Shown here piece by piece: positions 33,796-51,231 of a stretch of 64,000 bases of DNA (the first letter of the stretch is position 1; every line of letters begins with the position of its first letter). The DNA is taken from contig NC_010571.1 of the NCBI RefSeq assembly GCF_000019965.1, positions 4,225,001 through 4,289,000 on the forward strand. Direction: 5' to 3'. The notes under the pieces are model-generated. The model had not been told where the DNA came from, ran no database searches, and saw nothing but the letters and a program-made list of their open reading frames with translations. The DNA comes from Opitutus terrae PB90-1. Lineage in GTDB: Bacteria; Verrucomicrobiota; Verrucomicrobiia; Opitutales; Opitutaceae. Both the position numbers and the translations under genes were made by a program.

Positions 33796-34901
33796 ACGTC
33801 CTCGCCTACGCCCCTCAGATGGCCGCATTCGGCGGCATGGAACGACACGTGTGCGATCTCGCCTGTGTGCTCGCCCGTCGCGAACACCATGTCGTGCTGC
33901 TCACAACCAGCAACTCACTCGCGCCGCGGCTGCGTGAAAAGCTGCGCGAAAACGGCGTCGCGCTGCGCGAACTCGCGCGGGCCCGCGGCGAGGCCCGCGG
34001 CTGGCTCAAGGGCCTGTGGCTGCTGCGCGAAGCGCTGCGCCACGATCGCACGCCGTGGGATCTGATCTACACGAACGGCCAGAGCGCGCTCGCGCGGCTG
34101 CCCTGGCTCGCAGCGCGACCGCACACGCGGATCGTGCACCATCACCACACCGCCGCCGACGCAGGTGAGCAGGCGACATGGTCCGGCGGGTTTCGCCGCG
34201 TGCTGCAGCGCGCGCCCGAGCTCGTTGGCTGCAGCCGCTCGACGCAGGCCGCACTGGCGCAGGCGCTCGGCCGCGATGACGTTCGCTATTTGCCCTACTT
34301 GACCTGCCCGCCCGTCGACGCCGGCGCCGTGCGCGACCGCACCTACTCGCCGAACAGCCGGTTGCATTTCGGCTTCGCCGGCCGGCTGGTCGCCGAGAAA
34401 GGCATCGACCGGATCTGCGAACTCAGCCGCGAGCCGAGTCTCGCGGACATCACGTGGCACATCCATGGCGCCGGCCCGACGTACCCACCGACGTTCTTCC
34501 GCCCGTTTCCCAATGTGGTCTATCACGGCCCCTACGCCGGCGAAGTGCAGCAAGGCCAGATCCTGCAGGCGCTTGATGCCCTGGTGTTGTTCTCCACTCA
34601 CAACGAAGGCATGCCGCTGAGCCTGATCGAGGCGACTTCCGCCGGCCTGCCGTGGATCGCGACCGATCGAGGCGGCACGCGGGAACTCGCGGTCAGTCCG
34701 GAGAACGCGCTCGTGGTCGCGCACCCGGCCACGCTCCCCGATCTGCGCGCCGCCGTGCGCGCGATGGCCGATCGCATCCGCCAGGGGCAAACGTCGCGCA
34801 TCGCCCAGCGGCTGGTTTATGACGGGCTCTTCTCGCCTCCGGTGGTGTCGGAGGCGTGGTGCGATTTCCTGGAAGCCCGGCAACCGCAACCTGTCCCATG
34901 A
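33792..34901 (+). CDS. Glycosyltransferase family 4
   Basis: This 369-residue GT-B enzyme opens with VLAYAPQMAAFGGMERHV, the glycine-rich acceptor-side loop of GT4 proteins. Its second domain begins LHFGFAGRLVAEKGIDRI, and the donor-binding stretch reads FSTHNEGMPLSLIEATSAGL with the E...E pair (about 268-276). The next gene's ATG overlaps its stop. Confidence 0.93.
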   Translation: MNVLAYAPQMAAFGGMERHVCDLACVLARREHHVVLLTTSNSLAPRLREKLRENGVALRELARARGEARGWLKGLWLLREALRHDRTPWDLIYTNGQSALARLPWLAARPHTRIVHHHHTAADAGEQATWSGGFRRVLQRAPELVGCSRSTQAALAQALGRDDVRYLPYLTCPPVDAGAVRDRTYSPNSRLHFGFAGRLVAEKGIDRICELSREPSLADITWHIHGAGPTYPPTFFRPFPNVVYHGPYAGEVQQGQILQALDALVLFSTHNEGMPLSLIEATSAGLPWIATDRGGTRELAVSPENALVVAHPATLPDLRAAVRAMADRIRQGQTSRIAQRLVYDGLFSPPVVSEAWCDFLEARQPQPVP

Positions 34902-35977
34902 GCCAGTCTCACGCCTTCCCCTCGTGGATCCTTCCCGATTGGCGCTGTCCGGCGCAGCATGCCGCCGGCTCGGCCGATGCCGCCTCCCGCGACGCGTCTA
35001 GCCGGGCCGGCCCGCCGGCCGCCGAGTTTCACTCGTCCCGCGAGTGGGGCCGCGCGGATTCGTCGCTCGATCTCAGTTCGGCGCTGGCGTCCACGGACGG
35101 TCGGCGGATTCGCACCAGCGTGCTGGTCAACACGCACAACCACGCCCGGTTCATCGAGGAATGCATCGACTCGCTCCTCGTACAAACGGTGCAGCCCGAC
35201 GAGATCATCGTTTACGACGACGCGAGCACCGACGACACGCCCGAACGGCTCCGGCGCTACGGCAACCGGATCGTGCTCATCCAAGGCCAGGCCGGCGAAG
35301 GCCCGGGCTACGTGCGTCAGGCCCATGCCATCTTCACCGCGTTCCGTCATTCGACCGGCCAGCTCATCTTCCTCCTCGACGGTGACGATCGCTTCAAACG
35401 CACCAAGATCGAGCACTATGTGAACGCGTATGCGGTAAACCCCGACGCCGTGCTCGTCCAATCCCCGATGGATAAGATCGACGAGCATGGCCGGATCATT
35501 GGCAGCAACCGCGAACCGCGGAAACACGTCGTCGAGCACCTGAAGGCCATCTATCGCGAACAGGACGTCGACTTCTACTATCCAACGAGCTCGCTCGCGT
35601 TTGCCCGCTCCTTCCTGCTTTCCACCCTGCCGGTGGACCTGTCCGACGGGCTCGCACTCTGGACCGACACGCGGCTGAGCGTGATTGCCCCCTACTTTGG
35701 CCGCGTGCTGACGCTGCCCGAGGCGTGGGCCGAATGGCGCCGCCACGGCGGTTCGGATTCACTGCGCGTGCGTTCGCGCCGGCTGCAACTGCAACAAACG
35801 TGGATGCGCACCGAGGTGTTCAACCGCTTCTGCCGCCGGCACGGACTGCGCACAATCTCCACCTGGCGCAACGGCCGCTTCTACCTGCAACTCCTCCGGT
35901 TCTCGTTGCCGGAAGGCGCGTATCACCTCTTCCAGCGGCGGCTGCGGCGCCGGCTCACGCGGGCCTGGCAGGTCTGA
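34898..35977 (+). CDS. Glycosyltransferase family 2 with N-terminal extension
   Basis: The 359-residue protein has a low-complexity extension of about 65 residues (Ala/Ser/Gly/Asp) before the GT2 domain. The domain begins RTSVLVNTHNHARFIEEC and continues with VYDDASTDDT and a metal site in FLLDGDDRF. The extension is not signal-like and has no recognised domain. Both junctions are overlapping (ATGA upstream, TGATG downstream), so it is inside the operon. The acceptor side is unknown. Confidence 0.9.
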   Translation: MSQSHAFPSWILPDWRCPAQHAAGSADAASRDASSRAGPPAAEFHSSREWGRADSSLDLSSALASTDGRRIRTSVLVNTHNHARFIEECIDSLLVQTVQPDEIIVYDDASTDDTPERLRRYGNRIVLIQGQAGEGPGYVRQAHAIFTAFRHSTGQLIFLLDGDDRFKRTKIEHYVNAYAVNPDAVLVQSPMDKIDEHGRIIGSNREPRKHVVEHLKAIYREQDVDFYYPTSSLAFARSFLLSTLPVDLSDGLALWTDTRLSVIAPYFGRVLTLPEAWAEWRRHGGSDSLRVRSRRLQLQQTWMRTEVFNRFCRRHGLRTISTWRNGRFYLQLLRFSLPEGAYHLFQRRLRRRLTRAWQV

Positions 35978-37200
35978 TGGCGCGTATGTGGTCTCCGCGC
36001 AAAACCGCCCAGTCGCTCCGGTTCCATGCGCGGCGACTGCGGACGCGCGCGCTCGCGGCGCCGCGCGCCGTGCCGTGGCTCCGCCAAGCGCTGCGGCTGC
36101 CGCGCAACGAGGTGTTCGATCCGCTGGCGGGCGAGTCCGTCGCCGGTGTGCATGTGATTCCACTCGATCCCGCCGCAAGCTTCCACCGACCGCTGCCGCG
36201 TTTTGTTGAACCGCATCCCATGGCGGAACGGTTTTTTGCCCAGCGCACCCACGAGGTCACCGCACCAACTTACGTCGTGGACCTAGCCGACGCGATCGCC
36301 TGGGGCCATCCGACCGGCGGCGTGTTCACGCCGGACGGCCGGTTCGTGCCCGCGTTCACGCATGATCCCTCCGGTGCCGCCCTGCACACCGCGTGGACCC
36401 GGCTCCGACTGCCGCGACCGAAGCCGCTGCCCGGACGCACGCTCTATCTCGTCACGCCGGAGGCCACCGACAATTTCCACCACTGGATGATCGATCTGCT
36501 GCCGCGGCTCGGGCTGGTGGAGCGCGCCGGATTTCGCGTGCCCGATTTCGATCACGTCATCGTCAATCATGCGCACCGGCGCTATCAAACCGAGACGCTT
36601 GCGCGGCTGGGAATTCCGCTGGACCGCGTGATCACCGCAGATGCGGCGTTGTTCGTGCGCGCCGAGCACCTCGTGGTGCCCGCGTTGAAACAGCATCACC
36701 AGTCGCTGCCCGCGGCCGACGTGACCTTCCTGCGTCGCGCCCTCCTCGGCCACTCGACGAGTTCGTCCCCGGCGTCGCGCCGGCTCTTCCTAAGTCGCGC
36801 CGACGCTTCCTATCGTCGGTTGCGGCACGAAGCCGACCGGCATGACTGGCTGCGGGCCCATGACTTCGAAATCGTTCGTCCCGGAGATCTGACCGTGGCG
36901 GAACAGGCGCGATTATTCGCCGAAGCGGACGTGATCGCCGGCCCCGCCGGCGCCGCCTTCGCGAACCTCGTGTTCGCGCGGCCAGGCACCCAGGTCATCG
37001 AGATCGTGCCCCCGCAATGGATCGCGGCGTTTCACTGGATGATTTCGGCGCGTTGCGGACTCCATCACACCGTCGTGCTCGGCGAGGGTCCGGTCATGCG
37101 CGAGCCGCCGGGCGCCGGCGCCCGGCAGCACGACATCGTGTTGAGCGCCCAGAAGTTCACTCGCGCGCTGTCGCTCGCCGGTGCCCCTGCCGCCGCGTAA
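35977..37200 (+). CDS. Glycosyltransferase family 61 (DUF563-like)
   Basis: The 407-residue protein shows the GT61 hallmarks: NFHHWMIDLLPRLGLV (about 165), RRLFLSRADASYRR (about 268) and EQARLFAEADVIAGPAGAAF followed by NLVFARPGTQVIEI (about 308-345). GT61 contains plant xylosyl- and arabinosyltransferases and many bacterial capsule enzymes. An Arg-rich N-terminus of about 50 residues precedes the domain. The start at 35977 shares its first base with the previous stop (TGATG). Confidence 0.9.
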   Translation: MARMWSPRKTAQSLRFHARRLRTRALAAPRAVPWLRQALRLPRNEVFDPLAGESVAGVHVIPLDPAASFHRPLPRFVEPHPMAERFFAQRTHEVTAPTYVVDLADAIAWGHPTGGVFTPDGRFVPAFTHDPSGAALHTAWTRLRLPRPKPLPGRTLYLVTPEATDNFHHWMIDLLPRLGLVERAGFRVPDFDHVIVNHAHRRYQTETLARLGIPLDRVITADAALFVRAEHLVVPALKQHHQSLPAADVTFLRRALLGHSTSSSPASRRLFLSRADASYRRLRHEADRHDWLRAHDFEIVRPGDLTVAEQARLFAEADVIAGPAGAAFANLVFARPGTQVIEIVPPQWIAAFHWMISARCGLHHTVVLGEGPVMREPPGAGARQHDIVLSAQKFTRALSLAGAPAAA

Positions 37201-37253
37201 GCCGCGTGCAACCGATTGCGCCCGCGCCTGTCCGTCGTCGGCCAGCCTTCACG

Positions 37254-38498
37254 ATGATTTTGTTTTCGCATCCCACCGGCAACGCGAACGTGCGTCACGC
37301 GGCGCTCGGCCTGCACCGCGCCGGATTGCTCGGCGAGTTCTGGACCTGCGTGCACTACCGCGAAACGCCGCTGCTGCGCCGCGTTCTGCCCCGATCGCTC
37401 CGCCGGCAGCTGCAGCGCCGCGCGTTTCCCGCGGAACTAAACCACAAGATCCATTCGGCCCCGCTGCGCGAACTGGGGCGGATGCTGGCGCCGCGCGCCG
37501 GGCTGCGCTCGCTCGTCCGCCACGAACACGGACCGCTGAGCGTCGATGCCGTGTATCGTTCGCTCGACCAGCGCGTGAGCCAGCGGCTCGCCGCAGGGGC
37601 GTTCTCCGGCGTCTACGCCTACGAGGACGGCGCGCAGGCGAGTTTTCGCGTCGCCACCGAGCGGGGATTGTTGCGCGTTTACGATCTGCCGATCGGCTAC
37701 TGGCGCGCCGCCCGCGCGATTCTTCAGGAGGAAGCCGAGTTGCAGCCCGCGTGGGCCGGCACGTTGACCGGCAATCGCGACAGCGCCGAAAAGACCGCGC
37801 GCAAGGACGCCGAGCTGCAGCAGGCGGACGTCGTTTTGGTCGCGAGCACGTTCACCCAGCAGTCGCTGCAACTCGCACCCGATTTTCGTGGAACCGTCGC
37901 GCGAATTCCCTACGGCGCACCCGCGGTGGATCCGCTCCTCGTCGCCGCGCGCGAGCCGGCGGTGCCCCGCCAACGATTGCGCGTGCTGTTCGTCGGCTCG
38001 CTCGGACAGCGCAAGGGCCTCAGCTATCTGTTCGCCGCCGTCCGGATGCTCCGGCCGGCCGTCGAGCTGACCGTGATCGGCGCTCCCCCACTCGCCCGCT
38101 GCGCCGCGCTCGAATCCGAGTTGGCACAGGTTCGGTGGATCCCGTCGTGTCCGCACCGCGAGGTGCTCGCGGAAATGGCGCGGCACGATGTGTTCGTGTT
38201 CCCCTCCCTGTTCGAAGGCTTCGGACTGGTGCTGCTCGAGGCGATGGCGATGGGACTGCCGATCATCACCACCGCGCACACCGCCGGCCCGGATCTCATC
38301 ACCGACGGTGAAGAGGGCTTCATCGTGCCGATCCGTTCGGCCGCCGCCATCGCGGAGAAACTCGACCTGCTGCGGCGCGATCCGGCGCGGCGCGCCCACC
38401 TGAGCGAACGCGCGCGGGCTCGCGCCGGCACGTTCAGCTGGGAGCAGTATGGTGCCGCCGTCGCCCAGGCCGTGACCCGCAGCCCGGTGCCCGCGTGA
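37254..38498 (+). CDS. Glycosyltransferase family 4
   Basis: The 414-residue GT-B enzyme begins MILFSHPTGNANVRHAALGL. Its middle has an RVYDLPIGYWRAARAILQEE segment, and the donor domain starts LRVLFVGSLGQRKGLSYL. It contains FPSLFEGFGLVLLEAMAMGL with the EX7E glutamates (about 324-332). The ATG at 37254 is used because the upstream open frame overlaps the GT61 gene. The next gene follows after 2 bases, or overlaps by GTGA if its GTG is used. Confidence 0.93.
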   Translation: MILFSHPTGNANVRHAALGLHRAGLLGEFWTCVHYRETPLLRRVLPRSLRRQLQRRAFPAELNHKIHSAPLRELGRMLAPRAGLRSLVRHEHGPLSVDAVYRSLDQRVSQRLAAGAFSGVYAYEDGAQASFRVATERGLLRVYDLPIGYWRAARAILQEEAELQPAWAGTLTGNRDSAEKTARKDAELQQADVVLVASTFTQQSLQLAPDFRGTVARIPYGAPAVDPLLVAAREPAVPRQRLRVLFVGSLGQRKGLSYLFAAVRMLRPAVELTVIGAPPLARCAALESELAQVRWIPSCPHREVLAEMARHDVFVFPSLFEGFGLVLLEAMAMGLPIITTAHTAGPDLITDGEEGFIVPIRSAAAIAEKLDLLRRDPARRAHLSERARARAGTFSWEQYGAAVAQAVTRSPVPA

Positions 38499-38500
38499 GC

Positions 38501-39871
38501 ATGGAGAAGACGATCAAGTTCCTGCTTTGGACCTATCTCGTGCTGCTCATCTTCGAGGGCGCGCTGCGCAAGTGGGTGCTGCCCTCGCTGGCCGACCCGT
38601 TGCTGATCGTCCGCGATCCCGTGGCGATCGCGATTTATTGCGCGGCGCTCTTCAGCGGCCGGCTGCCGATGAACGGCTTCGTGATCACGATCATCGGGCT
38701 CGCGCTCGCGTCGATCGCGGCGAGCTTCGCCGCCGGCCAGACCAACCTCCTCGTGCTCGGCTACGGGTTGCGCATCAACTATGGCCACCTGCCGCTCATC
38801 TGGATCATGGCGCAAACGCTCACCCGCAAGGACGTCGAGCGCATGGGCTGCTTCCTCCTGCTCGTGGCGATTCCGATGACGCTCCTGATGGTGTGGCAGT
38901 TTCGCTCACCGATGAGCGCGTGGATCAACAAAGGTGTCGGCGGCGACGAGGGCGGACAGATTTTTGGCGCACTGGGCCGCATCCGGCCGCCGGGCTTTTT
39001 CTCGTTCATCACGGGGCCGCAGGCGTTTTTCCCGCTCGCGGCCGCGTTCTTCCTGTATCAGGCGAGCGGTAACCGGCGGCTGTGGTGGCCAATTCTGGTC
39101 GCCAGCGGACTGGCCGTGCTCATCGCGTTGCCGGTGTCGATCAGCCGCACCGCGATGATTGCGACCGGGATCGTCGTCGCCGCCTTTGTCGCGAGCATGC
39201 CGCGCGCGGGCATCGGGTTCGGGCCCGGTTTCAAGGCGCTGATCACGCTGGCTGCGGTCGGCGTGGTCGTGTCGTTTCTGCCGATTTTCAGCGAGGGCCG
39301 CGAGGCCTTCATGTCGCGCTGGGAGACCGCGGCCTCCACGACGGCCACCGGCGACGCGTGGTCGAGCATCGTGGGCCGGATCCTCGGCGGTTTCACCCAG
39401 CCGTTTCAATGGGCCGCGAACGCCCCGTTCTTCGGCAACGGCATTGGCGTCGGCTCCAACGTGGGCGCCCGCCTGCTCGCCGGCCGGGTGGGCTTCCTGC
39501 TCGCCGAGGACGAATGGAGCAAGGTCTTCCTCGAGCTCGGCCCCGTGCTCGGCGCCGCGTTTCTGGGCTTCCGCGTTTTCTTGACGATCCACTTGGGCCT
39601 GCGCGCGCTGCGCGCGCTGTTCTTCGATCGCGATAACCTGCCCATTCTCATTTTCGCCGCCGCCGCGGTGCCGATCGCGTTGAACCAATGGGCGCCGCCC
39701 ACGGTCCTCGGTTTCGCCGTGGTCGGTGGCGGACTGCTGCTTGCCTCGCTGAACCCCGTCATCGAGGAAGAAGAAGAGGAGCAGGAAGAGGTCGCCGAAG
39801 GCACCGAGAGTGCGGCTGACGAGGAGCCGGCCGAGGCGCCGCCGACGCAGCCGATCCGCGAACGCTACTAG
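38501..39871 (+). CDS. Polytopic Wzy/O-antigen-ligase-like protein (second copy) with acidic tail
   Basis: This protein of about 456 residues has about ten membrane helices. A large loop (about 245-330) contains TAASTTATGDAWSSIVGRIL, FFGNGIGVGSNVGARLLAG and EDEWSKVFLELGPVLGA. The layout and the loop resemble EPS polymerase/O-antigen ligase proteins, though it differs strongly from the first copy at 23587. It ends in an unusual highly acidic cytoplasmic tail: EEEEEEQEEVAEGTESAADE, then a Pro-rich end. A GTG at 38495 overlapping the previous stop is an alternative start. It is a candidate polymerase, with the first copy possibly a ligase; this is inference. Confidence 0.78.
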   Translation: MEKTIKFLLWTYLVLLIFEGALRKWVLPSLADPLLIVRDPVAIAIYCAALFSGRLPMNGFVITIIGLALASIAASFAAGQTNLLVLGYGLRINYGHLPLIWIMAQTLTRKDVERMGCFLLLVAIPMTLLMVWQFRSPMSAWINKGVGGDEGGQIFGALGRIRPPGFFSFITGPQAFFPLAAAFFLYQASGNRRLWWPILVASGLAVLIALPVSISRTAMIATGIVVAAFVASMPRAGIGFGPGFKALITLAAVGVVVSFLPIFSEGREAFMSRWETAASTTATGDAWSSIVGRILGGFTQPFQWAANAPFFGNGIGVGSNVGARLLAGRVGFLLAEDEWSKVFLELGPVLGAAFLGFRVFLTIHLGLRALRALFFDRDNLPILIFAAAAVPIALNQWAPPTVLGFAVVGGGLLLASLNPVIEEEEEEQEEVAEGTESAADEEPAEAPPTQPIRERY

Positions 39872-39891
39872 CCGCGAGGCCGCTTTCCGCC

Positions 39892-41067
39892 ATGCACGTT
39901 CTGCTCATCGGCAATTTCGCCCCCGACCATCAGGAGAGCATGCTGCGCTTCAGCCGGCAGCTCACGGCTGGATTGCAGGCGCTAAACCATGAGGTGAGCA
40001 CGTGGGCGCCGCAGCCGCGGCTGGTGCGTCTGTTGCCGCGCTATCGCTACGGTGGTTTCGCCAAATACATCGGTTACCTCGACAAGTTCGTGCTTTTCCC
40101 GCGGCAGGTGCGCTCCCAGCTCGCGCGCCAGCGGCCCGTCGACGTCGTCCACATCATCGATCACGCGAATGCGGTTTACGCGCCGCTGTTCACCGCGCGC
40201 CCGGTGCTCGCCACCTGCCACGACCTGCTGCAAATCCGCGCGGCGCGCGGCGAGTTTCCCCAGCATCGCGTCGCCGGGCTCGGCCGTCGTTATCAGGAAT
40301 GGATTTTGTCCGCGATCGCGCGGCTGCCTCATGCGGTCACCCCGTCGGCGCAGACGGCGCGGGACTTGCACCGGCTCGCCGGCCTGCCGCTCGAGCACAC
40401 GACGGTGATTCCGATGGGGTTGAACTATCCGTATCGTCGTTCGTCCGCCGGCGCGGCCCGGACCGCCCTCGCGCAGATGCTGCAGGCTCGCGAGCTGCCC
40501 GCCGACTTGCTGCAACGCCCCGGCGGCTTCCTCCTCAACGTCGGCGGCGGCCAATGGTACAAAAACCGCAGCGGACTGCTTGAGCTGTACGCCGTGCTTC
40601 GCCGGCTGCTCACGCCCGCTCCGCAGCTGATCCTGGTCGGCAAACCGCTCTCGGCCGAACACGGCGGGCTTACCCACGCGCTGGGGATCGAGCGCGAGGT
40701 CACGCATCTCGCCCGCGTTTCCGAACTCGAACTGCAGGCGCTCTACTCGACCGCCGAGGGACTGCTGTTTCCCTCGTGGCACGAGGGTTTCGGCTGGCCC
40801 GTCGCCGAGGCGCAGGCTTGCGGCTGTGCGGTTTTCACCTCCGAGCGCGCCCCGATGACCGAGGTCGGTGGTGAAGCCGCAGTCTACTTCGATCCCGCCG
40901 ACGTTTCCGCGGCGGCGCGCACGATCGCGGACGCGTGGCCGCAACGCGATGCGCTGGGCCAAAAGGGACTGACGCGCGCCGGCGAGTGGAGCCCGAGCCG
41001 GATGATCGAACGCTACGTCGACACCTACCTGCGGCTCGGGGCCGCCGCGCAACCGGTCGCCGCATGA
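39892..41067 (+). CDS. Glycosyltransferase family 4
   Basis: The 391-residue enzyme starts HVLLIGNFAPDHQESMLRFS, has VVHIIDHANAVYAPLF and ATCHDLLQIRAARGEF in the acceptor half, and FLLNVGGGQWYKNRSGLLEL at the start of the donor half. FPSWHEGFGWPVAEAQACGC gives the EX7E pair (about 293-301). Its stop overlaps the next gene by ATGA. Confidence 0.93.
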   Translation: MHVLLIGNFAPDHQESMLRFSRQLTAGLQALNHEVSTWAPQPRLVRLLPRYRYGGFAKYIGYLDKFVLFPRQVRSQLARQRPVDVVHIIDHANAVYAPLFTARPVLATCHDLLQIRAARGEFPQHRVAGLGRRYQEWILSAIARLPHAVTPSAQTARDLHRLAGLPLEHTTVIPMGLNYPYRRSSAGAARTALAQMLQARELPADLLQRPGGFLLNVGGGQWYKNRSGLLELYAVLRRLLTPAPQLILVGKPLSAEHGGLTHALGIEREVTHLARVSELELQALYSTAEGLLFPSWHEGFGWPVAEAQACGCAVFTSERAPMTEVGGEAAVYFDPADVSAAARTIADAWPQRDALGQKGLTRAGEWSPSRMIERYVDTYLRLGAAAQPVAA

Positions 41068-42251
41068 AACTGCTTCGTGTCATCGCCACGCTCGATCCGC
41101 GCCATGGCGGGCCTGCCGCCGGGCTGCGCGCGATCACGCCCGAGCTGGCCGCGCTCGGCCACGTGAGCGAGTTCGTGTGCCTCGACGCGCCCGGACAGGT
41201 GCGCGAGTTCCCCGGCGCCGCGGCGATTCACGCGCTCGGCCCGGCTCGCGGCGGCTACGCGTACGCGCGCGCCCTTGAGCCGTGGCTGCGGGCGCACGCC
41301 GGCGCCTACGACGCGGTGTTCGTGCACGGGCTGTGGCAGCATCACGGGCGCGCGGTGCATCGCGCGCTGCGCCGGCGGCGTCCGCCGTATTTTGTTTTCC
41401 CGCACGGCATGCTCGATCCCTGGTTCCGGCGCGCCTATCCGCTGAAGCATGCGAAGAAGTGGGCCTACTGGCAGCTCTGTGAACGCCACGTGCTGCGCGA
41501 CGCCGCCGCCGTGCTGTTCACCTGCGAGGAGGAACGACGCCTCGCCCGCGAATCGTTCCGCCCCTACGCGTGCCGCGAACGCGTGGTCGCCTACGGCACG
41601 GCGGCGCCGCCCGCCGACGCCGCTGCGCAGGTGCGTGCCTGGCGCGAGATGCAGCCGGCGCTCGCGGCGCGTCCGTTCTGGCTTTTCCTCGGCCGGATTC
41701 ATCCGAAAAAAGGCGTCGATCTGCTCCTGCGTAGCTATGGCGAGTTGGCGCGCATCGCCGGCGCCGAGCTGCCCGCGCTCGTGATCGCGGGTCCGTGCTT
41801 CGATCCGATTTACCTGACGAACCTGCGGAACCTCGCCGCGGCGCTGCCCGCCCCCGCGCGGGTGTTTTGGCCGGGCATGCTCGAGGGTGCGACCAAATGG
41901 GGCGCGCTGCGCACCGCCGAGGCGTTTGTGCTGCCGTCGCACCAGGAGAATTTTGGTATCGCCGTCGTCGAAGCGCTCGCCGCCGGCACGCCCGTGCTGA
42001 TCTCCCGCGAGGTGAACATCTGGCGCGAGATCGAGTCCGCCGGCGCCGGCTTCGCGGACACCGACGACGCGGCCGGCACCCGGCGGCTGCTGGCACGCTG
42101 GCATGAGCTACCCCGGGCCGCCCGCGGGCCGATGCGTTCGGCCGCGGTCGAACTGTTCACCACCCGCTACGAGATCGGCCGCGCCGCGCGCAGTCTTGTG
42201 GAAACCATCACGCCTTTCGTTCGCCCCGTCCCCACGATTTCACTGACATGA
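41064..42251 (+). CDS. Glycosyltransferase family 4
   Basis: The 395-residue enzyme begins LLRVIATLDPRHGGPAAGLR, contains VFVHGLWQHHGRAVHRAL and PHGMLDPWFRRAYPLKHAKK (a segment common in WcaI/ExoL-like GT4 proteins), and FWLFLGRIHPKKGVDLLL at the donor domain. LPSHQENFGIAVVEALAAGT carries the EX7E motif. It overlaps the PP-loop gene by ATGA. Confidence 0.93.
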   Translation: MKLLRVIATLDPRHGGPAAGLRAITPELAALGHVSEFVCLDAPGQVREFPGAAAIHALGPARGGYAYARALEPWLRAHAGAYDAVFVHGLWQHHGRAVHRALRRRRPPYFVFPHGMLDPWFRRAYPLKHAKKWAYWQLCERHVLRDAAAVLFTCEEERRLARESFRPYACRERVVAYGTAAPPADAAAQVRAWREMQPALAARPFWLFLGRIHPKKGVDLLLRSYGELARIAGAELPALVIAGPCFDPIYLTNLRNLAAALPAPARVFWPGMLEGATKWGALRTAEAFVLPSHQENFGIAVVEALAAGTPVLISREVNIWREIESAGAGFADTDDAAGTRRLLARWHELPRAARGPMRSAAVELFTTRYEIGRAARSLVETITPFVRPVPTISLT

Positions 42252-43543
42252 GTGCCGCTCCCCTTCTGCCGACCGCCGATCTGTTCATCGAGCCGCCCGC
42301 CCGTAGCGGCGACGACGTGGAATACGTCTGCCGGCTCGCCGAGCCGCGCGGGACCACACACCGGATCTGGTTTCGCTTTCCCGCCAGCTGCGAGCCGCTG
42401 CTGACGCGGCGGGCCGATCCGTTCGTGCTCGCCACGCTGATCTATAGCCTCGGCCGGATTGGCCGGCTCGAGATTCATGGCGCCGTCTCGCAGGGGCTGC
42501 TCGCCAACGTCGCCGATTTTCAATCCGCCTACGCGGCGTTTCATCGCGTGGCCGCTGCACCGGTGCGGCTCGTGGCCCGCGAGGTCGTCAGCGCCGCGAC
42601 GGCGAACCGGACGGATGGAGGAATCACCGCGTTCTCCGGCGGCGTGGACAGCTGCTTCAGCGTTTTCCGGCACACGTCGCTCTCCGAGCTGGAGCCCAAG
42701 CGGCCGCTGCGCGCGGCGCTGATGATGCACGGCTTCGACATTCCGTTGGCCGAACCGGCGATGTTCGCCCGCGCCGCGACGCGCGCGCGCACGCTCACCG
42801 AGTCGGCGGGCGTCCGGCTCTTTACCGGCGCCACGAACCTGCGCACGCTGCCGGGGCATTGGGAGGACACATTCGGTACCGCGGTGGCCGCTGTGCTCAC
42901 GTTTTTCCAACCCGCGTTTGTTTTCGGCCTCGTTCCCTCGGCTCAGCTTTGGCAACAGGTTCATTTCGATCACGGCTCGAATCCGCTGACCGACCCGCTG
43001 CTCTCGAGCGGGGCGTTCGCGATCGTGCACGACGGCACGAGCTTCGGTCGGATCGACAAGCTCCGCGCGCTGGCCGCGTGGCCCGAGGCGCTGCGGCTGA
43101 TGCGGGTGTGCTGGGAAGGACGTCACCTCGACGCCAATTGCGGCCGCTGCGAAAAATGCCTGCGCACGATGCTGATGCTCCGGATCTGCGGCGTCGACGC
43201 GCCCGCCGCATTTCCGCCGCTCGACCTCGCCGCGCTCGACCGGCTGGTCATCCGCACGCGCGGCGGCTTGGATGAGTTTGCCTACCTGATCAGCGAAGCG
43301 CGGCGCCGTAACATCACCGAGCCGTGGGTGGCTGCCGCCGAAGGCGCGGTGCGGCGCAGCCGGCGTGCTGCCTGGCTCAAGGCACGCGCGCGTCGCGCCG
43401 CGGGCTGGCTGCCTGCCGCGTGGCGCAATCGGCTGCAACGTGTCCGCCACCCGGCAGTCGCGACGGCGAGTGCGCCACCGCTCGCGGAGGCTTCAACCCA
43501 ACCGGCGCCCGTCGCCACGGAAGAGATGCTCTCACGGCCATGA
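42248..43543 (+). CDS. PP-loop ATPase-fold protein with CxxCxxC motif (QueC/ExsB-like), function unknown
   Basis: The 431-residue protein has an N-type PP-loop, ITAFSGGVDSCFSVFRH (about residues 127-143), the ATP pyrophosphatase signature of QueC, NadE and AsnB-type enzymes. Near residue 298 it has NCGRCEKCLRTML, a cysteine cluster like the zinc site of 7-cyano-7-deazaguanine synthase. The protein is about twice the length of QueC: some 120 N-terminal residues before the PP-loop and an Arg/Ala-rich tail of about 90 residues are extra. It sits between two GT4 genes with ATGA overlaps on both sides, so it should act in polysaccharide synthesis rather than queuosine synthesis. PP-loop enzymes activate a carboxylate or similar group by adenylation, so amidation of a uronic acid is one possible role; this is inference. 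Confidence 0.75.
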   Translation: MSAAPLLPTADLFIEPPARSGDDVEYVCRLAEPRGTTHRIWFRFPASCEPLLTRRADPFVLATLIYSLGRIGRLEIHGAVSQGLLANVADFQSAYAAFHRVAAAPVRLVAREVVSAATANRTDGGITAFSGGVDSCFSVFRHTSLSELEPKRPLRAALMMHGFDIPLAEPAMFARAATRARTLTESAGVRLFTGATNLRTLPGHWEDTFGTAVAAVLTFFQPAFVFGLVPSAQLWQQVHFDHGSNPLTDPLLSSGAFAIVHDGTSFGRIDKLRALAAWPEALRLMRVCWEGRHLDANCGRCEKCLRTMLMLRICGVDAPAAFPPLDLAALDRLVIRTRGGLDEFAYLISEARRRNITEPWVAAAEGAVRRSRRAAWLKARARRAAGWLPAAWRNRLQRVRHPAVATASAPPLAEASTQPAPVATEEMLSRP

Positions 43544-44724
43544 CTGCGCGCATGCGTCCGTTGAACATTACGATCGTCCAGGGCGCGTTTCTGCCCGTTC
43601 CGCCGCTGCTCGGCGGCGCGGTGGAAAAAGCGTGGCACGCGCTGGGGCTCGAATTTGCCCGACAGGGGCACCGCGTCGTGCACGTCAGCCGCGCACATCC
43701 CGCTCTGCCGGCAACGAACGTCGAGCACGGCGTCGAACATCGTCGTGTGCGCGGCCATGCCACGCCGTCGTCGCTGCTGTGGCTGAAGTTTCTCGACCTG
43801 CTCTACTCGCGGCGCGTTCGTCGCGTGCTGCCGGCGGCCGACGTGCTCGTGACGAACACCTTCTGGCTGCCGTTGCTGGAACGGCGCGCGTCGCGGGGCG
43901 TGCCCTACGTGCACGTCGGCCGCTATCCGAAGGGGCAGCTGCGCTACTATCCGCGGCGCGTGGTGCTTCAGACGGTCTCGGCACCGATCCGCGACGCGAT
44001 CCTGCGCGAGTTGCCCGACGCCGCCGCGCGGATACGCGTGCTGCCCTACCCGCTCTCGCCGGCGTACCTCGTCGAGCAACGAGCCCCCGCCCGCGTGATC
44101 CTCTACGCGGGCCGGCTGCATCCGGAGAAAGGCGTGCACTTGCTGATCGAGGCATTTGCCCAGCGGGCGGCGACGAGCCTGCACGGCTGGACGCTGCGGA
44201 TCATCGGACCGTGGCAGACCGCGCAGGGCGGCGGCGGCGAGAGCTATCGGGCGAAGCTCGCAGCGTTGGCAGCGCCCGCCGGCGCGAGCATCGACGTGCG
44301 CGAGCCGATCTTCGACGCGGACCAGCTCGTCGCGCATTACCAGCAGGCCGCGATCTTCGCCTACCCGTCGCTGGCGGAATTCGGCGAGACGTTCGGCCTC
44401 GCGGTGCTGGAAGCCATGGCCGCAGGGTGCGCGCCCGTGGTCTCGTCGCTCGCCTGTTTCGGGGATTTTCTTAAGTCCGGAGAAAACGGACTCGTCTTCG
44501 ACCATCGCGAACGCGATCCCGTGGCGGCGCTGGGGCGCGCGTTGCAGGAGGTCGCGAATTCCCAAGCGCTTTGCGACCGGCTCCGCGCCGCCGCGTGGCC
44601 CACGGCACGGGCTTACGCGCTGCCGGAGATTGCCCTGAGATTTCTACGGGATTTTCACGCCATCACGGAACGACCGGCGGAAATTGGGTCACATGTAACA
44701 CCATGTCTACCGGACCAAACATGA
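43540..44724 (+). CDS. Glycosyltransferase family 4
   Basis: The 394-residue enzyme begins NITIVQGAFLPVPPLLGGAV with the acceptor-side glycine loop, has ARVILYAGRLHPEKGVHLLI at the donor domain and YPSLAEFGETFGLAVLEAMA with the conserved glutamates. The ATG at 43540 overlaps the PP-loop stop as ATGA; an ATG four codons later is an alternative. Its own stop overlaps the next gene. Confidence 0.93.
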   Translation: MTARMRPLNITIVQGAFLPVPPLLGGAVEKAWHALGLEFARQGHRVVHVSRAHPALPATNVEHGVEHRRVRGHATPSSLLWLKFLDLLYSRRVRRVLPAADVLVTNTFWLPLLERRASRGVPYVHVGRYPKGQLRYYPRRVVLQTVSAPIRDAILRELPDAAARIRVLPYPLSPAYLVEQRAPARVILYAGRLHPEKGVHLLIEAFAQRAATSLHGWTLRIIGPWQTAQGGGGESYRAKLAALAAPAGASIDVREPIFDADQLVAHYQQAAIFAYPSLAEFGETFGLAVLEAMAAGCAPVVSSLACFGDFLKSGENGLVFDHRERDPVAALGRALQEVANSQALCDRLRAAAWPTARAYALPEIALRFLRDFHAITERPAEIGSHVTPCLPDQT

Positions 44725-45602
44725 ATGGCGCGCTGACCAAGCTCCTCTCCGAACTGCGAGGCCGCGAGGTCGTGGCCCTGCTCAATCGCGGCAATCGCGG
44801 CGACGGCTTGATCCACATGGGCGGCCGGCGCTTGCTCGCTGAGGTCGGGCTCGAGCACCGCGAAGTTTACGAAACCGGCGACCTGCAGAATCTCGGCGGC
44901 GATGTGCTGCTCGTCTACGGCGCGGGCGCGATGTCCCGCGGCACCAACACCCTTCCGAAACTGCTCAAGAAGCTCGGCCGGCGATTCGCGGAGGTGATCA
45001 TCCTGCCGTCGTCCTTCGACCTCAGCGAGTCGCGGGTGCGTTCGTTCGCCGAAACCTGGGACCGTCACTATACGGTGTTCTGCCGTGAAATGGTGAGTTT
45101 CGTGGCGCTCAAGGAGCAGAAAGTGACGCCGAAAGCGCTGCTGCTGGGACACGATCTCGCGTTTCACGCCGACCTGAGCGAGTGGGCCGCGCGACCGCAC
45201 CAGGGCGCGGCGGGGCTGTTCCGTCAGGATAACGAAGCCACCTACAGTTCCCTGCCACCGGACCTCGACGAATATCGCGACGCTTCGTACGGCTCAGACC
45301 GCGAGCCGGAGGGCTTGTTGGATTTCGTGGCGAAGTTCGACGAGATCCACACCGACCGCTGCCACGGCGCGATCTCCGCGGCCATGATGGGCCGCCGCGT
45401 CGTGTTTTACCGGAACAACTATTTCAAGAACCGCGCAATCTACGATCACAGCCTCGCGAGCATGACGAACGTGCGGTTCGTCGAGAAGATGCCGTTCTCG
45501 TTCCGGCAGTTCCTGCGCTCGCTTTACTGGGTGCGGATGCGTCCCGTCGAGATGAAGGCCCGCCGCGTCGTCCAGGGCCGCGCCGCCACCTCCAGCGCGT
45601 AG
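44721..45602 (+). CDS. Polysaccharide pyruvyl transferase family protein
   Basis: The 293-residue protein resembles pyruvyl transferases, which transfer pyruvate from phosphoenolpyruvate to form ketals on capsule or EPS sugars. Visible features are NRGNRGDGLIHMGGRRLL at the N-terminus, VYGAGAMSRGTNTLPKLL, VIILPSSFDLSESRVRSF, CREMVSFVALKE and the late EIHTDRCHGAISAAMMGRRV with the family His. The ATG at 44721 makes an ATGA overlap with the upstream stop; one at 44703 would add six residues. It is the last gene of the tight operon, and pyruvate would add negative charge to the polymer. Confidence 0.88.
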   Translation: MNGALTKLLSELRGREVVALLNRGNRGDGLIHMGGRRLLAEVGLEHREVYETGDLQNLGGDVLLVYGAGAMSRGTNTLPKLLKKLGRRFAEVIILPSSFDLSESRVRSFAETWDRHYTVFCREMVSFVALKEQKVTPKALLLGHDLAFHADLSEWAARPHQGAAGLFRQDNEATYSSLPPDLDEYRDASYGSDREPEGLLDFVAKFDEIHTDRCHGAISAAMMGRRVVFYRNNYFKNRAIYDHSLASMTNVRFVEKMPFSFRQFLRSLYWVRMRPVEMKARRVVQGRAATSSA

Positions 45603-45763: not shown

Positions 45764-48313
45764 CTACGGCGCGGTGGAGCGCTCGGGCCACGCGCCGGGG
45801 CGGCCGTGGACGTCTTCCGCCACGACGACGTAGCTCGCTCCGCTCGGCGCCGACGGATCGATGAACGGCGGCGCGGGCGTCGGTGGGACGGGGTTCTCGA
45901 CGTGCGGCGAATTGAGCCAACGGTAAGGGCCGCCCGCGCGCTCGGCGCGATACACCCGGTAGCCCGCCGCGCCGCGCGTCGGAGTCCACGTCACTGTCGC
46001 GGTGGATCCATCGTGACGGACAGTGATGCCGTCCACCGCCGCCGGCACCTCCACCCGCGCCGTCCATAACCGGGGCTCACGCACCAAGAGATCGGCGAGC
46101 ACGTAGTGTGTGAGGTCCGGCCAGTTTTTCCAGCGGCCACGCTGGGCGCGCGTGTAGTAGATCGCCTCCGTCAGCCCGGGCTCATTCGGTTGCGCCGGGT
46201 TCTGCAGCAGCCGGAGGTACGGTGCGCAGGACCAGCCAAGCCACCGATGCGTGTGCGTCTGGCCGCGGTAAAAATTCGCCCGCACCAACGGCTCCTGCGC
46301 CTTCGGTCGCGCCGCCACGCCGTGATACCGGTCTGCCATCACGTCGATGCAATCGGTGTAGCGCCCGTAGGCCAGCGGATGCAGGCCCAGGTTCTCGCCC
46401 GTCAGCAGCTCGCTCGTGCGCAGCCAAAAATCACAAATGGACTGGTAGAGGAAATCGGTTTGGTCGCCGTTTTTCGCGGACGCGCCGGTGTAAGGCCGCT
46501 GCCCGCGACCAAACACGCCCAGCACCGGCGGCGCTGTCGCCAGGTCGCGATAGAATCGTACCAGCGCCACATGCCCTGCCCGCGCGCCCGCGGTGAGTCC
46601 GAACAGCGTCGGGCCCATCTGCATGTTCAACGTCCGCGCGAAGCAATCGATGTAGGGATAGCCCTGCGCATCGGCGCGTCCGCCGATTTCGCGCACGGCG
46701 CTCGCCATCGCCAGGTTGACGCGCGACACGTCCGGCACGTCGGTCAACGCCGCGAGCAGCGCGGCCGCGCTCTGCGTGTACGTGATGTGATACGGATCCA
46801 GGGGACCGTAGGCGCGCCCCTTCTCGTCTTCGCGCAGCTTGCGCGCACCGTTGCCGGTCAACTTCGCGGCGGCGTTGCGCGCGGACGCGGCGAGTTTCTC
46901 CGCGTTCGCTTCGCGCGCCACGGGACGGTGTTTCAGAATGCGCGTCGCGGCTTCCGGGCCTTCGAGCACCAGTGCGCGAGCGGCTTCCTGCCGCCAGCCG
47001 ACCGGTTTCATCTCGCGCACGACTTCGCGCAGCGCCCCGTGCAACTCCGCCACCGTGGCGCCGGGCTCGTCGACAACCGCCACGAGCGGCTGCGCGTGCG
47101 CGACGTACGCGCCCCACAACTCGCCGTCGGTCCCCGCGGTGGTCGGCACCAGCCTCACCTCCGTCCAGTAGGCAGTGAGCGTGCGCTTTTCGTTTTCGGT
47201 TTCGCGCTTCAGTCCGCGCATTCCCTCCAGCGTCACGTCGCCGTCCTGCATGGTCCAGCGGCCGTTGCTGCCGCCGATCACCAACGGCACGGCCAGCAGC
47301 GATTCACCCGACGACCGGGTGAGTGCGGTGATCGTGTAACCATGCTCGGCGCGCAACGCGGAGCGAATTCCCGCCGGAATCTCGCGCACGACCGCGGTAC
47401 CGCCCACCAGCTTTCCGCGCAAGAGCCGATTCTCCCTCAGCGCGCCGCTGCCCGCACCCGGAAACACCGCCACGCTCAGCACGAGTTCGCGACCATCGCG
47501 TGGAATCCGATACTCCAGTTCGAGCGCGACGCCTTCGCTCGCCTCGATCCGCACATGGACTTTCGCGAACAACGGTCCGCTGGCCCACGTGACTTCACGG
47601 CGAGACGCGGACTGGTCCAGCGAGAACACCTCCGCTGGCTTTCCCTTCGACGCCGATCCAGCGACGCGCACCCGTGGAAATGCGCCCGCGTCCTCAAACC
47701 GCCATTGCGCCGCTCCGGAACGGATCGCCTGAAGCCCACCCTCGGCGGTGAACTCCACCTCGCCGGTGGCGGTGCGCACGCGCAAACCTTCCGGGCCGGC
47801 CTCGACCGGCATCGGCTCGTCGGCCGCGGGCGCCGCGGTGGTTCGGTGCTCGAGCTGAAACGCCTGCGTTGCTCCAGGCGCGAGCTCTACCGGAAACCAG
47901 AGATGCGCCCGGCTGATTCCACCGTCCGCCGCGCGCCGCACATCGTCCGCCTGCATCACCACCGACGCGCCACCACCGGCCGGCACGATCACGAGCTCCT
48001 CAAGTGAGCGACATTCACCCGGTCCGAAGAACACAGGGACGCGGACCAAGTCCCCGTCGCGCCGCACGCCCGCGCGCTCTTCGACCGAGAGGGTCCGGCG
48101 AATTACCTCATCCGAACGACCGATCAATTCCGCATAGTCAGCTGGCGGACCGGCGAATGTAGCGTGCGTGGGCGAGCGTTCTGCCGCGGTGCCGGTCGCG
48201 GCGACGAGCGCGAGCAGCCCCGCGCAGGCTAGCAGGCGACGGCTGACACCGCGCCGGCCCCCGCTCGGACGTAACGCAACCCCACAAAAAATCAGGAAGT
48301 TCGGGAACATCAT
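45764..48313 (-). CDS. Large secreted protein with C-terminal fibronectin-III domain, function unknown
   Basis: This 849-residue protein has an N-terminal signal region (Arg-rich segment then LLACAGLLALVAATGTA, cleavage near AAE). Its first half is beta-rich with no recognised motif. The middle (about 430-740) appears helical and is rich in Trp, Tyr and His (DPYHITYTQSAAALLAAL, YPYIDCFARTLNMQMGPT, HTHRWLGWSCAPYLRLLQ), as in alpha/alpha-barrel polysaccharide lyases or hydrolases. The end (about 755-849) is a fibronectin-III-like domain (ATVTWTPTRGAAGYRVYRAE). A role in degrading or trimming a polysaccharide outside the cell is plausible but unproven. It is divergent from the PEP-CTERM gene and convergent with the EPS operon. 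Confidence 0.8.
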   Translation of the reverse strand: MMFPNFLIFCGVALRPSGGRRGVSRRLLACAGLLALVAATGTAAERSPTHATFAGPPADYAELIGRSDEVIRRTLSVEERAGVRRDGDLVRVPVFFGPGECRSLEELVIVPAGGGASVVMQADDVRRAADGGISRAHLWFPVELAPGATQAFQLEHRTTAAPAADEPMPVEAGPEGLRVRTATGEVEFTAEGGLQAIRSGAAQWRFEDAGAFPRVRVAGSASKGKPAEVFSLDQSASRREVTWASGPLFAKVHVRIEASEGVALELEYRIPRDGRELVLSVAVFPGAGSGALRENRLLRGKLVGGTAVVREIPAGIRSALRAEHGYTITALTRSSGESLLAVPLVIGGSNGRWTMQDGDVTLEGMRGLKRETENEKRTLTAYWTEVRLVPTTAGTDGELWGAYVAHAQPLVAVVDEPGATVAELHGALREVVREMKPVGWRQEAARALVLEGPEAATRILKHRPVAREANAEKLAASARNAAAKLTGNGARKLREDEKGRAYGPLDPYHITYTQSAAALLAALTDVPDVSRVNLAMASAVREIGGRADAQGYPYIDCFARTLNMQMGPTLFGLTAGARAGHVALVRFYRDLATAPPVLGVFGRGQRPYTGASAKNGDQTDFLYQSICDFWLRTSELLTGENLGLHPLAYGRYTDCIDVMADRYHGVAARPKAQEPLVRANFYRGQTHTHRWLGWSCAPYLRLLQNPAQPNEPGLTEAIYYTRAQRGRWKNWPDLTHYVLADLLVREPRLWTARVEVPAAVDGITVRHDGSTATVTWTPTRGAAGYRVYRAERAGGPYRWLNSPHVENPVPPTPAPPFIDPSAPSGASYVVVAEDVHGRPGAWPERSTAP

Positions 48314-49420: not shown

Positions 49421-51211
49421 ATGGCCAACTTCCTTCTCGTCCACGATCCGGATACCGTCCGGCGGCAGTTCGCCGTCCTCCAAGCCCGCGATCGCGTTGG
49501 TTTCCTGCCGCAGATGCGCGGCGAGCTGACGCTGGCGTCGCACTACGCGCTCGCCTGGGCCGCGGCGCCGCTGGCGCCGGTGGAACACCACCGCGCGACC
49601 GAGCCTGACGCGCCCGACTGCATGCTGTTCGGCGCCCCCCATGATCACGAGGGCGTGACCTTGAAGGCCGCGGATTTTTGCCGGCGGCACGATATCGTCT
49701 GGGACGCGCCCAACGAGCTCAACGGCTACTACGCCGCGTTGTTGGTGCACCCGCGGCTGGGCGTTCGCATCGAGGGGGACGTGCTCGGACTTTTCCCACT
49801 TTATTATTGGCAGCACCGTGACGTGCTCCTCGTCGGTACGAGTCCGGAGCTGTTTCGCAGCCATCCGAGTTTCCAAAGCGAGCTCGACCTGCACGGTGCG
49901 GCGGCGCTGTTGTTGACGAGCGGGCTCGTCGGCGGCCGAACCCTCTGGCGTGGCGTGCGCCGGCTGGCCGCGGACCATCGCCTCATCTGGCTGCCCGGCG
50001 CGGCTCCGCGCGAGCTGCCACCGCCACTTCGCGCCGCCGGCGACATGATCGAATCGCGGGACGAGGCCGTCGAGCAGGCGGCGGAGCTGCACGCGTCGTT
50101 TCTGCGGGCGGCGCTGCGGGACGCGCAGCGCCCGGGCATGCTGCTGTCGGGCGGATTGGACTCGCGCTTACTGGCGGGATTCGCGGCGGAACAGACCCGC
50201 CAGCCCGAATGCCTCACCTTCGGCCGGCCCGAGGATCTCGATGCGGCGTGCGCCACGGCGGTCGCCCGCGAACTCGGGTTGAAACAATCGCTTTACGACG
50301 TCACGCCGGAGGACTACGCGCAGTATGCGCAGTCGAGCGTGACCTGGGAACAGTTGAGCGGCGGGCTCTACGCGCTGCCGATGGGATGGAATCTTTCGCT
50401 CCGTCCGCCCACGGTCGAGATCGACCGGCTCATCTGCGGATTGACGCTCGACGCCGTGATCGGCGGGCCGAAGTACGTCGCGCGCACGAGCGGTGCGCTT
50501 TCATTCGAGCGCCTGCGCATCGGCCGGCTGGGTTTCGGCCGCGATGAGCTTGCCCGGCTCATCGGCGCCCCGGACCTCGCCCGCGCCTGCGAGGACGTCC
50601 GCGGCGAGCTGCTCGACGAATATGTCGCTTCCGCCGCTAGCGACCACTTGCGGGAATGGCGGATGAACCTCGCGCACCGGCATCGCTTTGCCGTTGGGAT
50701 GTGTGCGTGGCGTTACTCGCTGTTCGCCTGGCCCGTGCTGCCGGCGCTCGACCGCCGGCTGATCGCGCTCGCCCACCGGCTGCCCTACTCGGTCATCAAG
50801 GACCGGCAGATCCAAACGCGGCTTCTTGTCACGCGTTTTCCCCGGCTCGCGCGGTTGGACCTCGACCGGAACTATTTCGATACGGTGCCGCTGCTCGGCT
50901 CGAAAACTTCCGCTTGGCGTGATCTGCGCCGGCGTGCGACCAAGCTGCGTCGCCGTTGCCAGACCTGGCTCGGACGCGACCCGCGGTTCTACGTGCGCAC
51001 GATGGAGTTCAACAGCCCCGGCTGGCGCGTGGTGCGCTCGCTCGCCGAAGAGGCGCGCGGCGCCGGCGCCGCGCTGTTTCGCACCGACGCGCTCGAGCGG
51101 CTGCTGCCGCGCGCCGACGTCCGCGTGCGTCATATCGAGGATCCCATCGTCCACTCCACCCCGCTGAAAAACACCCTCGGGTTGATGCTCTGGCTGAGAC
51201 AACACGCCTGA
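49421..51211 (+). CDS. Asparagine-synthase-like amidotransferase homologue, glutaminase Cys missing
   Basis: The 596-residue protein resembles AsnB-type enzymes found in exosortase/EPS loci. The N-terminal part (about 1-200) has class II amidotransferase-like features (NELNGYYAALLVHPRLGVRI, RIEGDVLGLFPLYYW), but the protein begins MANFLLVHD and lacks the Cys at position 2 needed for glutamine hydrolysis. The synthetase part has an intact PP-loop, LLSGGLDSRLLAGF (about 240-253), and a typical late region (WRYSLFAWPVLPALDRRLIA, about 428). It may use free ammonia or another nucleophile, or modify a sugar carboxylate. It lies after a terminator and is followed 20 bases later by a glycosyltransferase. 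Confidence 0.85.
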   Translation: MANFLLVHDPDTVRRQFAVLQARDRVGFLPQMRGELTLASHYALAWAAAPLAPVEHHRATEPDAPDCMLFGAPHDHEGVTLKAADFCRRHDIVWDAPNELNGYYAALLVHPRLGVRIEGDVLGLFPLYYWQHRDVLLVGTSPELFRSHPSFQSELDLHGAAALLLTSGLVGGRTLWRGVRRLAADHRLIWLPGAAPRELPPPLRAAGDMIESRDEAVEQAAELHASFLRAALRDAQRPGMLLSGGLDSRLLAGFAAEQTRQPECLTFGRPEDLDAACATAVARELGLKQSLYDVTPEDYAQYAQSSVTWEQLSGGLYALPMGWNLSLRPPTVEIDRLICGLTLDAVIGGPKYVARTSGALSFERLRIGRLGFGRDELARLIGAPDLARACEDVRGELLDEYVASAASDHLREWRMNLAHRHRFAVGMCAWRYSLFAWPVLPALDRRLIALAHRLPYSVIKDRQIQTRLLVTRFPRLARLDLDRNYFDTVPLLGSKTSAWRDLRRRATKLRRRCQTWLGRDPRFYVRTMEFNSPGWRVVRSLAEEARGAGAALFRTDALERLLPRADVRVRHIEDPIVHSTPLKNTLGLMLWLRQHA

Positions 51212-51231
51212 GCTGCTGTCCGTTTTCTGCC

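Follow-up and report, generated by a model that had tools for sequence, protein, structure and literature searches.

A QueC-like PP-loop protein of 431 residues (hereafter Q), encoded in a polysaccharide region of Opitutus terrae PB90-1, represents a new branch of the QueC/QatC fold that is a member of neither QueC nor QatC and has a new genomic partner, a pyruvyltransferase (PVT). The gene lies in a stretch of 64,000 nucleotides (the window; contig NC_010571.1, positions 4,225,001 to 4,289,000) of a genome that consists of a single contig of 5,957,605 bases. QueC-like enzymes are known from the synthesis of tRNA and DNA bases and, recently, from anti-phage protein modification, and a widespread PVT-tied branch would extend this fold to cell-surface glycans. 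We tentatively propose that Q is an ATP-dependent carboxyl-activating enzyme that forms an amide on an acidic glycan, pyruvylated or otherwise. If true, bacterial polysaccharides are predicted to have a carboxyl modification that is as yet undescribed, and annotators would gain a lead on many proteins now called hypothetical. The proposal builds on the computed fold, the active-site signature, the loss of QueC motifs, gene linkage and gene fusions.

Fold, signature and extent of the Q family

The Q gene and its parts are as follows.

42248 to 43543, + strand: Q, QueC-like PP-loop protein of 431 residues (translation; AlphaFold model; QatC is the best fold match)
42248 to 42601, + strand: N-terminal domain of Q, residues 1-118, an RNase-H-like arrangement at best; canonical QueC has no such domain
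42635 to 42652, + strand: PP-loop SGGVDS of Q, residues 130-135 (translation; alignment of 74 members)
43109 to 43159, + strand: C288-x9-C298-x2-C301-x2-C304 of Q, presumed structural zinc site (translation; alignment of 74 members)

Translation confirmed the initial annotation, which had placed a PP-loop and a CGRCEKC cluster in one protein at this position. The cluster corresponds to residues 298-304 and, with C288 ahead of it, gives C-x9-C-x2-C-x2-C, for which a zinc role is presumed by analogy with QueC and QatC (PMC13329287, PMC13279940; these and the other papers are cited for the parts of their text that were available). The open reading frame (ORF) is genuine and not a chance one, since its G+C by codon position (0.71/0.56/0.82) is the same as in the coding frames around it, relatives are encoded in 231 genome stretches of one genome-collection scan, and residues are invariant among them. 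Of the 231 stretches 80 were kept. A set of 121 homologous ORFs was reduced to 109 of 340-560 amino acids that could be aligned, to 88 at 75% identity and finally to 74 members (Q and 73 others), while neighbours were counted at 57 or 58 dereplicated loci out of the 80. G132, D134, C288, N297, C301, K303 and C304 are invariant in all 74, and the last PP-loop residue (S135) is S in 46, A in 20 and G in eight. K303 is not invariant family-wide, because L111, a paralogue from the same genome that was among the ORFs left out of the alignment, reads CGVCFTC. NCGRCEKC was itself one of the peptide patterns in the search for relatives, and its exact letters are thus over-represented in the set; relatives gathered without it mostly read CGxCxKC or CSxCxKC.

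Structure prediction bore out the suspected ATP-pyrophosphatase fold of the QueC type. The AlphaFold model has a mean predicted local distance difference test (pLDDT) score of 91.2, and below E 0.001 Foldseek matches it to QatC with ATP (E 1.6e-6) and to nothing else. In VIA-align, QatC (9y01_B) aligned with Z 15.5 and a root-mean-square deviation (rmsd) of 4.8 over 300 residues (model residues 6-371), Cap9 with Z 11.6 and rmsd 3.1 over 168 residues, and thereafter other PP-loop enzymes, including the nitrile synthetase ArtA (Z 8.9). The structure alignment shows in Q the build of QatC, with an N-terminal domain, a QueC core and a C-terminal extension. The N-terminal domain alone gave no Foldseek match under E 0.001 and reached a VIA-align Z of only about 6, with RNase-H-like chains. 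At the sequence level, the Q family aligned as a profile to 23 QueC proteins, chosen for having YPDC, at E 7e-9 and to 11 QatC-like proteins, six of them above the curated cut-off, at E 2.3e-7. Searches of the PDB sequences by phmmer and by profile returned no full-length match to Q, and the best profile rows were PP-loop enzymes, with QatC at E 0.18.

No curated family in Pfam, NCBIfam or PADLOC matches Q above its cut-off; at E 1 there was no hit at all in NCBIfam or PADLOC and none to a QueC model of Pfam or NCBIfam. In Pfam, DUF6395 (PF19932) scored 17 bits against a curated cut-off of 25. It overlaps the C-terminal half of Q, is matched by 26 of the 74 members at E 0.01 and was found above cut-off in none of 276 genomes of the window's phylum. 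The QueC model PF06508 is matched by 11/74 members at E 0.01, and the QatC models by 2/74 (best E 0.023). A literature search on DUF6395 found no paper, nor was one on the Q family found among the matches listed from the open literature, a search in which subscription papers were mostly outside coverage. The same holds in the open literature for a deazaguanine synthase with a glycosyltransferase and a pyruvyl transferase, and for a PP-loop protein with exopolysaccharide (EPS).

A separate search of 288 genomes of the phylum matched Q in 28, and O. terrae itself has three such places. In addition, 13 plasmid records carry Q relatives annotated as hypothetical proteins. Some loci hold two or three copies of Q, mostly side by side, as in a Priestia aryabhattai plasmid (L208 3224-5828); further multi-copy loci are L030, L034, L036, L037, L048, L055, L060, L068 and L071. 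The circular Priestia megaterium pS3 of 2633 bases (L212), possibly an assembly product, has a Q relative as its main gene.

Canonical QueC has the conserved motifs YxQxHxxE, VPxRN and YPDC (PMC13329287). By pattern, neither YPDC nor VPxRN occurs in any of the 74 Q members, and YxQxHxxE, found in one, is missing from the Q of the window. A separate queC followed by queE, which had been named as something to look for, is present in the O. terrae genome. For 46 of the 80 loci, which come from 44 host genomes, full-length QueC was found in 33 of the hosts; within the phylum 25 of the 28 Q hosts have it. It was missing from 14 of these 72 hosts in all (11/44 and 3/28). QueE was unseen at E 1e-6 in 11 of the 14, with a model that rang in 5/5 positive controls. 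Among these 11 hosts are the isolates Kaistia granuli, Parafrankia colletiae and Rhodococcus tibetensis. Metagenome assemblies make up most of the remainder, which leaves single absences soft. Since the QueC motifs are lost and there are hosts without full-length QueC, the substrate of Q is probably not a deazaguanine.

The view that this is not a setting for queuosine synthesis also stood. With queries for queA, queC and queE from the O. terrae genome (queD, queF, queG and tgt were not searched), a single queA was found near the Q loci, about 1.4 kb from a Q paralogue in the same genome (G000 2617887); L020 gave one weak radical-SAM match to the QueE query (24% identity). A queuosine locus was rejected for that paralogue, as a frame judged by eye to be unrelated lies in between and no other searched locus has queA. 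The intervening frame ends in a PEP-CTERM-like tail (L116 6725-10671). At G000 near 1361364 (L115 8337-10669), a Q paralogue, as a 554-residue ORF, overlaps an AhpC/TSA-redoxin gene by 4 bases.

Pyruvyltransferase partner and genomic setting

PS_pyruv_trans, the PVT family, was the commonest among 110 immediate neighbours of 57 loci (15 occurrences, with 12 of Asn_synthase, nine of glycosyltransferase family 2 (GT2) and three of GT4). The Pfam model, run on 28 genomes, placed a PVT no further than 5 kb from 16 of 41 Q places, which belong to 15 genomes, where 0.47 would be expected by chance. All 13 plasmid records with Q were opened, and 11 of them have a PVT no more than two genes away from it; this is not so in Nostoc sp. 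UHCC 0302 or in a two-gene Priestia record of 2,633 bases. In all seven Azospirillum plasmid records, which are close kin, the PVT is the gene immediately upstream of Q. The stretches opened there, reaching 9 kb to each side in one record and 4 kb in the other six, contain no annotated glycosyltransferase, although the plasmid gene table behind this last result is incomplete. Azospirillum brasilense Sp7 has the isolated PVT-Q pair (AMK58_RS27455/27450).

Most of the PVTs linked to Q also group together. A tree was made of 60 rows, 41 linked to Q and 19 unlinked ones taken from the same genomes, and 34 of the former and two of the latter fell into a single clade (support 100/92). Some of the linked rows had been collected with a profile itself built on such proteins; the unlinked rows were hand-picked, with weak ones under-sampled. 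This tree has rows from 33 of 35 fetched stretches, and 10 Psychrobacter loci were omitted from it as near-copies. In an enlarged tree (FastTree; rows from 53 of 54 stretches, two small fragments not being fetched separately) this clade comprises 34 of the 41 linked rows together with 10 unlinked ones out of 72, and within the subset gathered by Pfam alone the figures are 10/14 and 10/72 (Fisher p 3e-5). The PVT of the window (row L197) belongs to this clade. Pfam PVT scores differ as well, with a median of 50 bits for Q-linked proteins (n=15) versus 88 (n=75; p 0.001). The PEP-site (phosphoenolpyruvate-site) pattern of CsaB, RxH...K (PMC10435577), with the Lys 19-24 residues after RxH, is present in 36/36 rows of the clade in the 60-row tree, including the window PVT, and in five of six plasmid PVTs from four genera, the one without it being from Gemmobacter.

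In two cases Q and PVT are joined in a single chain. A protein of 1134 residues from a single-contig genome of the same phylum (G228; L215 2824-6228) consists of a GT2 domain (3-301), a PVT (333-640) and Q (649-1021), and one of 622 residues from a member of the Planctomycetaceae (L079) has Q (34-358) ahead of the PVT (362-620). The opposite domain orders suggest that the fusions are independent events. Weaker signs of fusion were seen in L066 (20.8 bits) and L059 (10.6 bits). On the Gloeothece plasmids L202 and L204, the PVT-Q pair adjoins three glycosyltransferases and large nonribosomal peptide synthetase genes.

A second, rarer neighbour is an AsnB-like protein. The one in the window (49421-51211) has an Asn_synthase domain at E 2.2e-10, with the asn_synth_AEB and macrolactam-cyclase models below cut-off. 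It presumably has no glutaminase activity, because it starts MANF and not MCG and hence has no nucleophile Cys. Cys2 is also missing from Q-adjacent AsnB-like relatives in Cyanobacteria, Acidobacteria, Omnitrophota and Desulfobulbaceae (the start in L035 is uncertain); separate AsnB genes in L035, L037, L040, L062 and L065 start MCGI. Only three of 276 genomes of the phylum have the AsnB-like protein at E 1e-15, and in all three it lies no further than 7 kb from Q. One of these three, from the same family as the window, has the AsnB-like gene, Q, a GT4 gene and a weakly matching PVT, in this order, within 9 kb.

More broadly, a glycosyltransferase, flippase, PVT or AsnB-type gene, detected with our own profiles, lies within five genes of Q at 37 of 58 dereplicated loci. 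The polysaccharide region of the window spans about 26 to 52 kb and contains the following genes.

26004 to 27311, + strand: ABC transporter ATPase, at the upstream end of the region
33792 to 41067, + strand: further glycan genes, namely GT4, GT2, GT61, GT4, a 458-residue protein without family, and GT4
40935 to 42251, + strand: GT4 glycosyltransferase upstream of Q, ATGA-coupled (Pfam; ORF limits, the true start probably further in)
43540 to 44724, + strand: GT4 glycosyltransferase downstream of Q, ATGA-coupled (Pfam)
44571 to 45602, + strand: PVT family protein, PF04230, 35.8 bits (ORF limits; TTG start overlapping the GT4 gene)
49421 to 51211, + strand: AsnB-like PP-loop protein without catalytic Cys, starting MANF, Q-linked (Asn_synthase domain)
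50956 to 52137, + strand: GT2 glycosyltransferase after the AsnB-like gene (ORF limits)

The ATGA coupling of Q to GT4 genes on both sides, as first described, was confirmed by the overlaps at 42248-42251 and 43540-43543 and by Glycos_transf_1 matches of the flanking proteins (E 1.9e-21 and 2e-26, Pfam). The 458-residue protein (38495-39871, + strand) has a hydrophobic start and no family match in Pfam or NCBIfam, and may serve this locus as polymerase or ligase. An ORF of 849 residues at 45764-48313, with good codon-position bias, runs counter to the glycan genes (- strand) and has no match in Pfam (E 0.001) or NCBIfam (E 0.01).

Candidate function and rival explanations

QueC adenylates its carboxylate, and the pyruvyl ketal is a carboxylate. 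By analogy, ATP would probably be bound at the SGGVDS loop of Q, which would then probably adenylate a carboxylate and make an amide by transferring the acyl group to ammonia or a different amine. QueC itself uses ammonia to turn its carboxylate first into an amide and thereafter into a nitrile (PMC13329287). The most likely substrate of Q would be the carboxylate of the pyruvyl ketal, or one belonging to that acidic residue, in a glycan that is lipid-linked or polymerised; this choice is favoured because the most specific partner of Q is a ketal PVT that is sometimes fused to it. In such a pathway, which takes the PVT partner to be active, Q would mask or extend the charge brought in by the PVT, and the Cys-less AsnB-like protein may be a second, glutamine-independent former of amides. 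Stated as a two-enzyme unit, in which the PVT adds the ketal and a QatC-like enzyme amidates it or joins an amine to it, with the AsnB-like protein taking an amide step in some lineages, the scheme is more specific and should be regarded as doubtful. If it were true, part of the polysaccharide annotated as pyruvylated would have a masked or substituted ketal; no paper on amidated pyruvate ketals was found in the open literature.

Several observations weigh against an amide-forming enzyme tied to pyruvylated glycans. Ala or Gly replaces the last PP-loop Ser in 28 of the 74 members. No PVT lies within 5 kb of 25 of the 41 Q places (contig ends not being allowed for), several genomes in the PVT comparison are close kin, and Q does not have the PVT clade to itself, since about half (10/20) of the Pfam-gathered rows in the clade are located away from Q. 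RxH...K marks PVTs and not the link to Q, because 35 of 72 unlinked PVT rows also have the motif. The expectation that homologues would always lie in EPS loci failed, as 21 of 58 loci have no glycan-type gene within five genes; neighbours at these glycan-poor loci are diverse, and a Pfam scan of 119 of their 129 neighbours of 180-1300 amino acids, from 20 of the 21 loci, had no glycosyltransferase or PVT family among the best 25 of 194 families listed. Both paralogues in the O. terrae genome lie outside glycosyltransferase loci, one by the AhpC/TSA gene and one by queA. The absence of a deazaguanine pathway is also softened: three of the 14 QueC-less hosts have weak partial QueE matches, indistinguishable from a positive control at 1.4e-9, and among 14 named control genomes the QueE model rang in eight and the QueC model in 12. 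Finally, gene linkage does not tell which group Q acts on.

The sugar-modifying role first suggested for Q, for example on a uronic acid, is upheld as to the link with glycan synthesis, while nothing points to uronic acids in particular. That Q amidates, or makes a nitrile of, a uronic acid or another acidic sugar, the PVT link reflecting decoration of the same polymers, appears unlikely. It would agree with the position of Q within a glycosyltransferase operon, with the carboxylate-to-amide-and-nitrile chemistry of QueC and with PP-loop amidotransferases such as WbpG that serve O-antigen synthesis (PMC13329287). Against it, the immediate neighbours of Q are richer in PVT than in GT2 or GT4, fusions with PVT exist, and no sugar-acid dehydrogenase was among the best 25 of 92 neighbour families listed, none having been searched directly. 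Modification of a protein, with Q ligating a small acid onto the N-terminus of its PVT or AsnB-like partner as in Cap9 and as proposed for QatC, is less probable still. The nearest solved structure is that of QatC complexed with QatB, of the same three-part build, QatC too is without the substrate-recognition residues of QueC (PMC13279940), and a short MAN start is common to many AsnB-like partners; but in the fusions both enzymes are on one chain, the PVT part of L079 has no free N-terminus, and deazaguanine supply looks absent in some hosts.

It is highly improbable that Q acts on 7-deazaguanines as a second QueC that is present here by chance. The fold, the PP-loop and the Cys motif are as in QueC and one paralogue has queA nearby, yet the substrate motifs are gone, a true QueC is present in the genome, some other hosts have no full-length QueC, and queA, queC and queE were seen at no other searched locus; the candidate was therefore rejected. 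A role of Q in defence or in phages found no support in PADLOC or in a phage collection. As for the preferred reading, an amide-forming enzyme of acidic glycans, the known Psychrobacter polymer structures could not be attributed to Q-bearing strains in the available text of PMC7281560.

Comparison with known systems

WbpG-type N-acetyl sugar amidotransferases, whose model we take TIGR03573 to be, resemble Q in having a PP-loop and in lying in polysaccharide loci. They are annotated as amide-forming (PMC13329287). Assignment of Q to this type was rejected, as Q has no NCBIfam match at E 1 and the WbpG-type motif CxxC(x)6CxC is missing. In its main text, as available, the QueC survey names WbpG with lipopolysaccharide and has no word starting with "polysaccharide" or "glycosyl" and no "DUF6395" (PMC13329287). 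The partners of Q have relatives of their own. The PVTs have the PEP-site RxH...K in common with CsaB-type ketal pyruvyltransferases, the Q-linked clade scoring more weakly in Pfam, and the AsnB-like protein has the Asn_synthase domain in common with AsnB and with AsnB-like enzymes that have no glutaminase, such as lasso or macrolactam cyclases, but is without Cys2, is linked to Q and falls into no named family.

QueC shares with Q the PP-loop SGGxDS and a Cys motif C-x8/9-CxxCxxC, that of Q being one residue longer than C(x)8CxxCxxC. Unlike QueC, Q has no YPDC or VPxRN, has about 120 more N-terminal residues and occurs in hosts without full-length QueC. Cap9 of type IV CBASS (cyclic oligonucleotide-based anti-phage signalling system) also has a QueC-like core, a fold by which a carboxylate is ligated to a protein amine (PMC13279940). 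In contrast to Q, it has about 185 residues, keeps the QueC substrate motifs and is found in a CBASS operon (PMC13329287), whereas Q has lost YPDC and has glycan genes as neighbours in the window.

QatC (NF041925, of the qatABCD anti-phage system) is like Q in that an N-terminal domain, a QueC core and a helical C-terminal extension are combined and YPDC is lost. Its zinc motif is C(x)19CGxC where Q has C-x9-CGRCEKC, and Q lies beside glycan genes, with no Qat partner gene recognised next to it in the window; this check concerned the neighbours in the window, those of the relatives not being searched with Qat models. Q was rejected as a QatC proper, there being no match to the QatC models at E 1. 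In profile alignment, the TTHP of QatC pairs tentatively with a GS-[NH]-P stretch of the Q family, which we infer may occupy the same place as the two threonines of QatC. In the QatC of Pseudomonas aeruginosa these threonines replace the base-recognising residues of QueC and are needed for defence, and its authors propose a substrate different from that of QueC (PMC13279940).

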